A stretch of 47,322 bases of DNA from an uncultured Bacillota bacterium (GTDB taxonomy: Bacteria; Bacillota_I; Bacilli_A; Erysipelotrichales; Coprobacillaceae): positions 1 to 47,322 of the forward strand of contig CASETM010000107.1 of the NCBI GenBank assembly GCA_949290865.1, given 5' to 3'. The translations under genes were made by a program, and so were the position numbers. Under the pieces are notes generated by a model that saw nothing but the letters and a program-made list of their open reading frames with translations, did no database searches and had not been told where the DNA came from. This document shows, piece by piece, positions 10,064-47,322 of the stretch. Position 1 is the first letter of the stretch. The number at the start of each line of letters is the position of its first letter.

Positions 10064-10110
10064 TTTCGTACTCCTTTTTTTTGAAGTATTATAGCATAAA
10101 ACATGATGTT

Positions 10111-21973: not shown

Positions 21974-22845
21974 ATATCATCAGGGATATCGCATATGATA
22001 TCCATTTTTTTATGTGTAAGCGGATGCTCAAACTGCAGTCGCCAGGCATGCAATGCCATGCGGTCAATATAAGGACTTTTGCTGCCATAAAGCTCATCAC
22101 CAAGCAAAGGATGGGAAAGAGAACTTAAATGGACTCTGATCTGATGCTTTCGCCCAGTTTCGATCTGGCATTCAACCAGTGAATAATCTTTTCTGATCAG
22201 TTTCTGGCGAATATGAGTGACAGCTTTTTTGCCAGTTGAAGAAATGATCATCTTCTGCTTATGATGCCGGTCATGACCAATGGGCTTGCTGACAGTGAGT
22301 GCTTTTTTACTGAAATGGCCAGTGACTGCTGCCAGATATGTTTTTCTGATGGCTTTGGAACTGATCATCGAATCAAAGCATGGCTGCAGCAGACTGCATT
22401 TGCTGAACATGACCAGTCCGGTTGTGTCTTTATCAAGACGATGAAGACAGCGTACAGGGTAATATTGTCTGGTCTGCAGATAGTGATAGGCAACATAGTT
22501 GCATAATGTATTGAGCCCATCTTTATGTTCTGGATAAATGATCGTATGCGCTGGTTTATTGACGATGCACAGCAGTTCATCTTCATAGACGATATCTAGA
22601 GGATAGGGCTGGGGCTGATAATCCAGACCAGTTGTGTAAGCTGTGACAGTAAAAAGATCATTCTTGTTGACTGCAGTAGTGACAGGGACATAGCGGCCAT
22701 TTAACTGATAGGCTTTATGCTGCTGGAGAAGATGGATGGTCTTACGGGAAAGATGCAGATTCTGGAATATGTCCAGAATTGTCTGGCCATGATATGTTTC
22801 ATCAATGGTCAGGATCAGTTTCGTATGTTCTTTTTTATAGTGCAT
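21958..22845 (-). CDS. RluA/RluD-family RNA pseudouridine synthase
   Basis: The protein has 295 residues. The catalytic Asp is Asp138 in HRLDKDTTGL, followed by TGRKHQIRVHL near 230. The first ~70 residues resemble an S4-like RNA-binding region. It isomerises uridine to pseudouridine in rRNA or tRNA; which site cannot be told. It begins inside the end of rlmA with an 11-base overlap and has no Shine-Dalgarno sequence, so its translation must be coupled to rlmA. Confidence 0.92.
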   Translation of the reverse strand: MHYKKEHTKLILTIDETYHGQTILDIFQNLHLSRKTIHLLQQHKAYQLNGRYVPVTTAVNKNDLFTVTAYTTGLDYQPQPYPLDIVYEDELLCIVNKPAHTIIYPEHKDGLNTLCNYVAYHYLQTRQYYPVRCLHRLDKDTTGLVMFSKCSLLQPCFDSMISSKAIRKTYLAAVTGHFSKKALTVSKPIGHDRHHKQKMIISSTGKKAVTHIRQKLIRKDYSLVECQIETGRKHQIRVHLSSLSHPLLGDELYGSKSPYIDRMALHAWRLQFEHPLTHKKMDIICDIPDDMKKLF

Positions 22846-23641
22846 AGACAGTTATTTTAATATCGATTGTAATATCATGATCCTGAATTGTATCGAGCAC
22901 GCCTCTTTTTTCTTTTTTGATGTGATAGTAGTGAGGCGTCATTTTTAATAGATTTAAGACATCTTCTCTGTTATCAATATGAACTTTTTTTACAAACTGC
23001 ACGCTTTTTGCTTCAGGAAAACCTAAACGCAGATATTTGTCGCTCTTGATTTTGATTTCGTCATAAATCAGTTCTTTAATTTCAATCAGATGACGGGGAT
23101 TGGCTGTTACATGGATGATATAGCCGCCTTTTTTTAAGATCCTGCTTAATTCTTCGCGATTGACAACGGTAAACAGAGCACAGACAAAGTCCAGGCTGTG
23201 ATCAAGAAGTGGAATATTCTTGGAATTGCCTACGATCCAGGTGATGTCTTTACGATATCTGGTGGCCATGTCGATGGCTGTTTTAGAGATATCTAGACCA
23301 TAGATATCACTGTCAGGGAAATGTTCCTTCAAACCTTTGGTATAATAACCTTCTCCACATCCCAGATCGAGAATAGAAAGCTGATCTTGTTTTCTGTAAT
23401 GTTTGATCAAAGCAGTGACTTGTTCCAGGATCACATCATAATAGCCTTGATTCAGATAGGCTTTTCTGGCCAGCAGCGATTCTTTGCTGTCACCAGGGTT
23501 GTTTGTTGCTTTATCTGGATTCAGCAGCAAATTGATATAGCCGCGCCTGGCAATATCATAACAGTGATGACTGTCACATTTTAAAGTTTTGTTTTCTAAG
23601 TGTAATGGTTTATGACATTTTGGACATGCGAGTTTTTGCAT
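22835..23641 (-). CDS. rlmA: 23S rRNA (guanine-N1)-methyltransferase, RlmA family
   Basis: The protein has 268 residues. An N-terminal zinc ribbon (CPKCHKPL, later CDSHHC) is followed by YDIARRGYINLLL, the diagnostic lead of the family. The SAM-binding motif LDLGCGEGYYTKGL is near 96-109. It methylates N1 of a guanine in helix 35 of 23S rRNA (G745 or G748). The gene has an extremely short predicted leader: its extended -10 at 23659-23667 puts the start site about ten bases before the ATG, just enough for GAGGTGA. It heads a two-gene operon with the pseudouridine synthase. Which guanine is modified is not resolved. Confidence 0.9.
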   Translation of the reverse strand: MQKLACPKCHKPLHLENKTLKCDSHHCYDIARRGYINLLLNPDKATNNPGDSKESLLARKAYLNQGYYDVILEQVTALIKHYRKQDQLSILDLGCGEGYYTKGLKEHFPDSDIYGLDISKTAIDMATRYRKDITWIVGNSKNIPLLDHSLDFVCALFTVVNREELSRILKKGGYIIHVTANPRHLIEIKELIYDEIKIKSDKYLRLGFPEAKSVQFVKKVHIDNREDVLNLLKMTPHYYHIKKEKRGVLDTIQDHDITIDIKITVYAL

Positions 23642-23658
23642 AGTTTCACCTCGAGGCT

Positions 23659-23690
23659 ATTATAGCATAAATTCAGCTGTATGCTATAAT
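23659..23690. promoter_or_regulatory. Palindromic bidirectional promoter
   Basis: ATTATAGCATA at 23659-23669 and TATGCTATAAT at 23680-23690 are perfect inverted copies ten bases apart. Each arm is an extended -10 element (TGC-TATAAT) facing outward: leftward to rlmA, rightward to the leader of the gene at 23944. Neither direction has a good -35. Confidence 0.7.
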
Positions 23691-23943
23691 GTTGAAGAGA
23701 GTTGATGATTTTAGCTGTCGATCTATTTTCATTGGGAAAGCGAATCTGCTACCATCAGAACAGACTTGCGATGATATAAATGATACAGAAAATGGAAAGA
23801 TGATTTTACACGAATCTTTGCTGCTTCGGAAATGAAAGTTTGGAGTTTCACAATAAAAAGTTGGGAAAGGGTGAAATCATTGAAATCAATTTAAAACCCT
23901 CATAAATTGTGATAGTATAATAAACGAAGAGGAGGTCTTGTAT
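23691..23943 (+). other. Gene-poor leader region, possible structured RNA
   Basis: About 250 bases lie between the rightward -10 box and the next start codon. It contains a 24-codon open frame from 23705, without a strong ribosome site, and a GCGAATCTG / CAGACTTGC hairpin (one mismatch) near 23750-23780. A second -10-like TATAAT lies at 23916-23921 close to the next gene. I see no known riboswitch, T-box or tRNA here. Confidence 0.4.
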
Positions 23944-24210
23944 ATGTTTTTTAAAAGAAAACCAAAAGTGGATCTGGATACACAATTTAAAGAACTGTAT
24001 AAAGAAACAAATAAAATTACTGCAGATGCCGGAAATGAACTGGATTTTGTTATTAAATATTCACAGATGCAGCTGGCATGTCGCAATTATGAAAAATTAT
24101 TGAATCTGATTGATCAGGGCGCAAATTTTGATAAAGATCATTTTTTATCTCTTAAAGAGAGTGTAGAAGAAGAAACAAAACGTATTAAAGGAATTATCGA
24201 TGAAGATTAA
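23944..24210 (+). CDS. Small acidic helical protein of unknown function
   Basis: The protein has 88 residues. After a basic start (MFFKRKPKV) it is almost wholly helical and charged, with the feel of a small coiled-coil protein. A strong GAGGAGG lies eight bases before ATG 23944; the in-frame TTG at 23938 is too close to it. It overlaps the SpoU-type methyltransferase gene by 11 bases, so the two are translationally coupled. I do not recognise the family; a helper of the methyltransferase is only a guess from coupling. Confidence 0.75.
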   Translation: MFFKRKPKVDLDTQFKELYKETNKITADAGNELDFVIKYSQMQLACRNYEKLLNLIDQGANFDKDHFLSLKESVEEETKRIKGIIDED

Positions 24211-24940
24211 AGCTTATAAAAAAGATGCTGAGTATACGTATACTTTAGGTGTTTTTGAAACGATCGAGCTGTTGAAGAACAAACCAGAACTGGTATGGAG
24301 GGTTTATATAAAAAGCAATTCCTATAAAAATTCTGGTTTGAAAATTATTGCGCAGATTTGTCAAGAACAGCACATTGAACTGATTGAAAGTGATCATACG
24401 ATAGAAAAACTGTCTAAGAAAGAAAACTGCTTTGCGATAGCAGTTATAAAAAAATATCAAATGACGTTGCAGGAAGGAAATCATGTCGTACTTGTTAATC
24501 CTGGAGATATGGGAAATATGGGAACGATCATGCGAACGATGCTGGGCTTTCATTATCGGAATCTGGCAATCATTCGCCCGGGAGTCGATATTTTTGACCC
24601 ACGGGTACTGCGTTCGTCGATGGGAGCAATCTTTCATTTGCGTGTAGAGTACTTTGACAGTTTTGCGGATTATATTGAAAGATTTCCTGATCATGATATT
24701 TATCCTCTTATGCTAAAAGGAGCAAAAAATATTCATCAGGTTCAGAAAGATCCAAAACGTAATCATTCCTTGATTTTTGGGAATGAAAGCAGTGGTCTGC
24801 CTGATGATTATCTTGATTATGGACAGAGTATTTTTATTCCCCACAGTCATCAGATTGATTCATTGAATCTGTCAATGGCCTTAGGAATTACATTAGCTCA
24901 TTTTTCTAAAGATGAGTTCAAAGACAGAACGGTATTATAA
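24200..24940 (+). CDS. SpoU/TrmH-family RNA 2'-O-methyltransferase
   Basis: The protein has 246 residues. The SPOUT motifs are clear: NPGDMGNMGTIMRT (motif 1, with the conserved N and R), GNESSGLPDDYL (motif 2), and IPHSHQIDSLNLSMALGI (motif 3), forming the trefoil-knot SAM site. The N-terminal ~90 residues form the substrate-binding part. It methylates a ribose 2'-OH in rRNA or tRNA; the target is not told by sequence. It follows the small helical protein with overlapping frames, and the MalY-like gene starts 20 bases later. Confidence 0.9.
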   Translation: MKIKAYKKDAEYTYTLGVFETIELLKNKPELVWRVYIKSNSYKNSGLKIIAQICQEQHIELIESDHTIEKLSKKENCFAIAVIKKYQMTLQEGNHVVLVNPGDMGNMGTIMRTMLGFHYRNLAIIRPGVDIFDPRVLRSSMGAIFHLRVEYFDSFADYIERFPDHDIYPLMLKGAKNIHQVQKDPKRNHSLIFGNESSGLPDDYLDYGQSIFIPHSHQIDSLNLSMALGITLAHFSKDEFKDRTVL

Positions 24941-24960
24941 ATGAAGAAAGGAAGAGAAGA

Positions 24961-26127
24961 ATGTTTGATTTTGATGAAGTAATTGACAGAACCGGAACGA
25001 ACTGTGCCAAGTGGGATTCAATTGAAAGTCAGCATAAACCTCATGGAGTTTTGCCAATGTGGGTTGCTGATATGGATTTTCGTTCACCACAGCCGATTCA
25101 GAACGCGTTGAAAGCAAGAGTAGAACAGGGTGTTTATGGGTATTCTTTTATCGCTGATGAATACTTTGATGCGGTAATCAGCTGGATGGAAAGACGTCAT
25201 GATTTTCTAGTGGAAAAAGAATGGATCGTACCAACACCAGGTGTTGTCAGTGCCATAAAAATATGCGTCAATGCTTTTACGAAAGAAGATGATGCAATCA
25301 TTATTAATAAACCAGTATATTATCCATTTGATTTTTCAATTGAATTGAATCATCGAAAAATTGTTGAAAATCCAATGATTCTGGAAAATGGAAAGTATAA
25401 CATGGATATAGATGCTTTTGAAAAAGCTATCGTTGAAAATAATGTCAAGATGTTTATTCTCTGTAATCCATATAATCCAATTGGGAAGGTGTGGAAGGAA
25501 GAAGAACTGAAAGCAATTGGAGATGTATGTCAAAAGCATCATGTGATCGTCGTCAGTGATGAAATTCATCAGGATTTTGTTTATACAGATCATATTCATT
25601 TACCTTTTTATAATGTCGATCCTGCCTATAAAAATTTTGCAGTTATTTTAACAGCGCCAAGTAAAACATTTAATCTAGCGGGACTACAGACATCGAATAT
25701 TATTATTGCTGATAAGAATTTAAGAGAGAAATATCAGCAGACGATGGAAAGAGTAGGAGTTAATGCCCCTAACTTTTTAGGTGCAATTGCCTGCATGACC
25801 GCATATAATGAATGCGAATTGTGGGTCGATGAACTTGTGGAATATATTTATGATAATTTCATGTATTTTGACGAGTTTCTTAAAACTAATCTGCCTCACA
25901 TCAAACTGATTCAGCCAGAAGGACTGTATCTGGCCTGGGTTGATTTCAGGGAGTGTGGTCTGGATAAAGATGCGTTAGAAAAAAAGATGCTTGAAGAAGC
26001 AGGAATATGGCTGGATGAAGGCTATATTTTTGGAACTGGCGGGGAAGGTTTTGAAAGGTTTAACCTGGCTGTACCACGTTCTGTTCTGGAAGATGCCTGT
26101 CAAAGGCTGCTGAAAGCATTTCAATAA
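24961..26127 (+). CDS. MalY/PatB family PLP-dependent aminotransferase / C-S lyase
   Basis: The protein has 388 residues, a fold-type I enzyme. The opening FDEVIDRTGTNCAKWD, followed by LPMWVADMDFRSP, is the MalY/PatB signature. NPYNPIGKVW and SDEIHQDF follow, and the PLP lysine is Lys235 in APSKTFNLAGLQTS. Such enzymes cleave cystathionine or cysteine (beta-lyase), giving homocysteine or sulfide. AAAGGAAG precedes the ATG. No maltose genes are near, so a role in sulfur amino-acid metabolism is more likely than MalT control. Confidence 0.91.
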   Translation: MFDFDEVIDRTGTNCAKWDSIESQHKPHGVLPMWVADMDFRSPQPIQNALKARVEQGVYGYSFIADEYFDAVISWMERRHDFLVEKEWIVPTPGVVSAIKICVNAFTKEDDAIIINKPVYYPFDFSIELNHRKIVENPMILENGKYNMDIDAFEKAIVENNVKMFILCNPYNPIGKVWKEEELKAIGDVCQKHHVIVVSDEIHQDFVYTDHIHLPFYNVDPAYKNFAVILTAPSKTFNLAGLQTSNIIIADKNLREKYQQTMERVGVNAPNFLGAIACMTAYNECELWVDELVEYIYDNFMYFDEFLKTNLPHIKLIQPEGLYLAWVDFRECGLDKDALEKKMLEEAGIWLDEGYIFGTGGEGFERFNLAVPRSVLEDACQRLLKAFQ

Positions 26128-46999: not shown

Positions 47000-47322
47000 G
47001 TGTGCCGGGCATGGCACTAATTCAGTTGGAGACAAACCAACCACAGGTATTTACCGCCAAGTGTAGTGACCCACAAGTCGATAACAGTAATGTTGAGGAT
47101 GAAGGAAGTGGTGTAGCGACTCTTTTGAGCGCACGAACAGAAACTTGATATAAGGCTAAATGGTGGATAAGATTGCTAGACAAATCAAAGTCCTAAAGGT
47201 AAACGTAAAACCAAGACAGTAAATCAAGGCGTTGTGAAAGAGATAGGATTAGTGAATTACCCCGGGAGGTCCCTTAGACGATGAAGTCCAGTAAACTTTA
47301 AAATCAGTGATGGTACCATCGG
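47000..47322 (+). mobile_element. Group II intron, 5' part (domain I)
   Basis: The element starts with GTGTG, the group II GUGYG 5' end, followed by CCGGGCATGG. Further in, stretches such as AGTAACCGCC-like TTTACCGCCAAGTG and CCCGGGAGGTCCC match domain I of bacterial introns. No open frame appears within the 323 bases available, as expected for the RNA-only domain I; the reverse transcriptase would lie beyond the window. It sits directly behind the terminator of the gntR gene, so no gene is interrupted. Class cannot be assigned from this part. Confidence 0.75.

Follow-up and report, generated by a model that had tools for sequence, protein, structure and literature searches.

In the window analysed here (the whole stretch of DNA, 47,322 nucleotides), a perfect inverted repeat lies between rlmA and an operon on the opposite strand, and the question it raises is what such a symmetric element is doing between genes that face away from each other. 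On the minus strand, 22835-23641 encodes an rlmA-like 23S rRNA (guanine) methyltransferase of 268 aa, which matches PF21302 at 46.7 bits (cut-off 27) and scores 236 bits, under the cut-off of 303, against NF008300. The plus-strand operon begins with p90 (23944-24210), which encodes a protein of 89-90 aa that is conserved beside rlmA and spoU in the family and for which no Pfam or NCBIfam match was found. It continues with spoU (24200-24940), whose product belongs to the SpoU/TrmH superfamily of RNA methyltransferases (PF00588, 100.7 bits; its best NCBIfam match, TIGR00186, reaches 63.5 bits, below the cut-off of 160.15). The first-pass annotation had spoken of the "other rRNA methylase operon". 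The PF00588 match upholds the RNA methyltransferase in that label; rRNA as the substrate of this SpoU/TrmH protein is not proven.

Sequence and geometry of the inverted repeat

The repeat occupies 23659-23690, with arms at 23659-23669 and 23680-23690 that are 11 nt long and 100% complementary and a 10-nt spacer between them (23670-23679), exactly as first annotated. Its arms had also been read as two outward extended -10 elements, and this too is borne out: either arm, read outward, is TATGCTATAAT, which fits the Gram-positive extended -10 TRTGnTATAAT at all informative positions, with TRTG one base 5′ of TATAAT in both. The account in PMC2613000 describes the TRTG extension for Gram-positive promoters. 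The minus-strand arm (hexamer 23664-23659) is the putative extended -10 of the rlmA promoter, with a predicted start at about 23652; the plus-strand arm (hexamer 23685-23690) has a predicted start at about 23697 and is probably the old promoter of a gene since lost (below). Starts were placed, by inference, 7 nt past the hexamer, and -35 positions were read with a 17-bp spacer.

Genome-wide, TATGCTATAAT occurs 18 times, against 3 occurrences of a reversed-letter control. Fifteen of the 16 copies outside the repeat were fetched, and 13 of these lie 16–82 nt upstream of an ORF of at least 60 aa that is preceded by a Shine-Dalgarno (SD) sequence; of the remaining two, one is 286 nt from its ORF and one has no ORF. 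The sixteenth copy, at window position 10088, has an SD and an ATG downstream. The excess over the control and the position of so many copies before SD-preceded ORFs together argue that the arms are real promoter-type elements. Judged by its letters, the palindrome is two ordinary bacterial promoters of the housekeeping sigma factor type that face outward, and whose activity we infer. Its symmetry is a by-product of two consensus promoters that have the same free letters. Many of the genes behind the 15 fetched copies have the -10 just 16–20 nt before the start codon, and leaders of about 10 nt that start at the SD seem to be common in this genome.

Perfect 11-nt inverted repeats are frequent in the window (19 with loops of 3–20 nt, nested copies counted separately, against a mean of 0.8 and a range of 0–5 in 20 shuffles). 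By eye, the majority of the remaining repeats resemble terminator hairpins, and the one at 23659-23690 does not. No terminator-like site was found at the palindrome, nor on the plus strand anywhere in 22500-25000, and an Rfam search of 23400-24300 up to an E value of 1, which takes in the 250-nt gap between the plus arm and p90, matched no known RNA. At the window's very end (47081-47255, plus strand) there is a match to group II intron D1-D4-3 (RF02001, 98.7 bits).

The two hexamers are separate and 20 bp apart, and the predicted starts (23652 on the minus and 23697 on the plus strand) are 45 bp apart. The -35 position of either promoter reads ATAGCA and falls within the opposite arm; since it matches TTGACA at three of six positions, both promoters must rely on the extended -10. 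The overlap of polymerase sites that had been proposed follows from this geometry: with this distance between the starts, and with either -35 position falling within the opposite extended -10, the pair should accommodate one polymerase at a time. Polymerase exclusion between the arms is thus geometrically plausible and likely; coupling of expression is unproven, and whether exclusion alters expression depends on promoter strength.

Conservation of the element beside rlmA

The rlmA ATG sits 17 nt past the end of its -10, and the predicted leader is 11 nt long (GAGGTGAAACT, 23642-23652, minus strand), with a complete SD at its 5′ end. The transcript would be short-leadered yet not leaderless, with the full SD retained. 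A search at an E value of 1e-40 found rlmA in 42 of 43 family genomes, and inspection of all 42 loci showed a -10 with a score of 12 or more out of 14 upstream of rlmA in 36 of them; in 35 it ends 12–24 nt before the ATG (at one of these, L142, what reads as a -10 may belong to the coding sequence of the gene upstream). A short rlmA leader therefore appears to be a habit of the family, and the original remark that rlmA has almost no leader is supported by both the prediction and its conservation.

An outward partner (at least 12 of 14, 28–45 bp across the pair) is present at 16 of the 42 rlmA loci, against 0.87 expected from dinucleotide shuffles, and is absent at that threshold from the other 26; as the sequences are related, the 16 loci do not represent 16 independent events. 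The pairs measure 31 bp (8 loci), 32 bp (2), 34 bp (1) or 41 bp (5) across. Their arms are identical at three loci and different at 13, which argues that symmetry itself is not selected, and the exact 11-nt palindrome, with a loop of 4–16 nt, was found in one of 60 genomes searched, the source genome. The first-pass annotation had proposed a search for the same arrangement in related species; what recurs there is the outward pair, and the perfect palindrome is not conserved.

The gene beyond the plus arm

What lies beyond the partner arm differs among genera, being the gene for a membrane metallophosphoesterase (MPE) in Thomasclavelia and p90-spoU or spoU in others. MPE is a membrane protein of roughly 350 aa with a calcineurin-like phosphoesterase domain (PF00149, tested on the proteins of loci L019 and L013). 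At the Thomasclavelia loci the MPE gene has in front of it an arm that stands at the equivalent position with respect to rlmA. In the class with pairs of 31 or 32 bp, the MPE gene starts 69–76 nt from the rlmA ATG at seven of ten loci, and in the six of these seven that were checked it starts 22–25 nt past the plus -10. One 32-bp pair (L122, genome G017) lies directly between rlmA and spoU, and at four of the five 41-bp loci (L112, L117, L132 and L136) the pair lies directly between rlmA and p90; at the fifth (L143) the pair has rlmA on one side and, on the other, a small gene with cds364 behind it. In G008 (L128) MPE is absent at rlmA and the plus arm is kept, 119 nt before a gene that looks GNAT-like from its sequence alone. 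At this locus, where MPE is missing, the outward arm and its flank are tandemly duplicated, with arms at 31 and 74 bp.

Within the genus of the source species, an intact MPE gene stands between rlmA and p90-spoU in one member only, the sister species G004. In the window, the gap of about 250 nt from the plus arm to p90 holds, in frame and at the syntenic place, GNESLEFHNKKLGKGEIIEINLK, which is 52% identical over 23 aa to the end of the G004 MPE; this remnant of the 3′ end of the gene (23828-23905, plus strand) reads GNESLEFHNKKLGKGEIIEINLKPS and then a stop. No shuffle in 1000 attained its alignment score of 50 when the C-terminal 60 aa were the target, and one in 1000 did so when the target was the whole protein. 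The alignment of the remnant DNA with that of G004 also continues across the stop region and on into p90 (73% across 100 aligned columns; E value 3e-10 in a two-sequence comparison and 4.2e-7 against the G004 genome). The last 23 codons of the MPE gene are thus left just upstream of p90, and about 0.9 kb is missing. A 24-codon ORF (23705-23779, plus strand) that starts 14 nt after the plus -10 is a possible N-terminal MPE stub; it is not significant by itself, its score being reached by 75 of 1000 shuffles. Remnants in the other members of the genus are weak to none (scores reached by 22, 387, 178 and 171 of 500 shuffles in G005, G002, G003 and G001, respectively), and these four genomes have neither MPE here nor an arm of that strength at 28–45 bp. 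Elsewhere in the source genome there are more distant MPE-like proteins (34% and 31% identity), so loss of the gene may be buffered.

Because the plus arm points at the MPE remnant and a sister species keeps the gene, the arm is probably the inherited promoter of the lost gene. The main addition of this analysis is that the arm most likely once served a metallophosphoesterase gene, now deleted. G004 has no plus arm at this spacing despite its intact MPE, and the ancestral state in the genus is for this reason reconstructed from Thomasclavelia. We regard it as probable that the element is a compact back-to-back pair whose minus arm, the conserved rlmA promoter, drives rlmA and whose plus arm is the still-present promoter of the deleted gene. 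The plus arm would once have driven a divergent MPE gene, a role for which its Thomasclavelia counterpart is suitably positioned; the gene would then have been deleted in the source species save for its last codons, and its promoter would have stayed. It would now read, if anywhere, through the remnant toward p90-spoU, and one polymerase at a time could bind the pair. Both outward -10 elements of a divergent pair are present, and the gene on the plus side is now a remnant, with just the 24-codon ORF past the arm.

Competing explanations and known systems

The first-pass annotation saw in the pair a link between rlmA and the other methylase operon, and the corresponding explanation makes the plus arm the main working promoter of p90-spoU, with the two RNA methylases co-regulated by polymerase exclusion. 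In related genera comparable pairs, of 32 or 41 bp, do stand directly between rlmA and spoU or p90 as listed above, and in the window nothing resembling a terminator precedes p90 on the plus strand. In the source genome the proposed link is weak, however: about 250 nt, with the MPE remnant among them, separate the arm from the p90 ATG, and p90 has a nearer promoter-like site of its own (TGTGATAGTAT, 23908-23921, plus strand, overlapping a TATAAT at 23916-23921). This nearer site has a similar counterpart in four same-genus genomes and none in G004 by alignment, and those four genomes, which presumably still express p90, do so without a strong plus arm. We consider this explanation unlikely. 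A chance origin, in which the plus arm is a spurious promoter with neither history nor role, seems more improbable again. AT-rich DNA readily yields promoter-like sequences, and five other genomes of the genus are without a strong arm at this spacing; against this, the match is perfect and stands at nearly the same distance as in a neighbouring genus, and at this locus chance would give a match equal to it or weaker with a probability of about 0.02.

An operator bound by a dimeric regulator that acts in both directions would account for the perfect two-fold symmetry across 11-nt arms, and is nevertheless the explanation to which we give least credence. No informative position of the arms departs from the -10 consensus, single copies precede many other genes, and no regulator gene is adjacent. 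The differences between arms in relatives fall, in the 31/32-bp class, mostly at positions where the consensus is free, and we rejected the operator because the symmetry is not kept. Compatible with a deleted MPE gene, and in our estimate about as doubtful as a p90-spoU promoter, is a broader proposal in which the place beside rlmA is, in this family, a fixed promoter seat. An outward -10 31–41 bp across would persist there through exchange or deletion of the gene that it faces (MPE, p90-spoU, spoU, the GNAT-like gene, or a remnant only), either because polymerase exclusion with rlmA is the selected function or because orphaned promoters adopt the next gene. If true in its adoption version, the seat would be a visible example of a promoter inherited after its gene was lost. 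On the preferred reading, that of a promoter left by a deleted MPE gene, a tight divergent promoter can survive its gene and end up facing the operon beyond, and the relatives offer a natural variant series for the question of exclusion (MPE present; MPE deleted and arm kept; MPE deleted and arm lost). As regulation of rlmA the arrangement is ordinary, and the whole element is tidy and mostly ordinary gene regulation.

Searches of the literature on divergent or extended -10 promoters gave no title or abstract opening that names this locus, and no paper was retrieved for Faecalibacillus in combination with transcription start sites. Together, 43 family genomes contain 75 instances of the pattern ATTATANCA-N0-30-TGNTATAAT and 12 of its reversed control; across 60 genomes from the class, which include three from the source family, the counts are 97 and 10, a roughly tenfold difference. 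From this excess, tight outward pairs appear to be common in the class, and most of 21 such loci that were fetched (L065-L085) have short-leader genes on both sides. At three of them (L066-L068) a 40-bp outward -10 pair with a conserved spacer separates a gene that we label HAD-like phosphatase from one that we label small membrane protein; the 40-bp sequence recurs in several other genera. Helical phasing of the spacing was dropped as an idea: in 70 pairs among the matches listed in the class search, all from families other than the window's own, R peaked at 0.30, for a period at the limit of the range tested, and 97 of 2000 uniform sets reach that value. Among those listed matches there was no pair at 25–28 bp.

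The bidirectional promoters with a shared -10 described by Grainger and colleagues resemble the present element in divergent transcription, in DNA symmetry and in mutually exclusive polymerase binding, the last as predicted here from geometry. As reported in PMC12825309 and PMC10268837, starts around one shared -10 are most often 18 bp apart, and also 10 or 23 bp. Membership in that class is ruled out by the separate hexamers and the distance between the predicted starts. At the rlmA locus of G004 (L146), TGTTATTAT (TATTAT) overlaps the rlmA -10 on the opposite strand, before the intact MPE gene and with a predicted start spacing of 18 bp, and this is predicted to be a shared -10 arrangement. 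In the experiments reported in PMC12825309, five shared -10 promoters of E. coli were too weak at basal level to compete, and competition emerged once one direction was strengthened; by analogy, this strength rule should hold for the present element too. Closer to it are divergent back-to-back pairs with non-overlapping -10 elements and TRTGn extensions, which likewise place two outward sigma-A-type promoters within a short intergenic region; unlike ordinary pairs of this kind, the arms here are full consensus and identical, and one of them has probably lost its gene.
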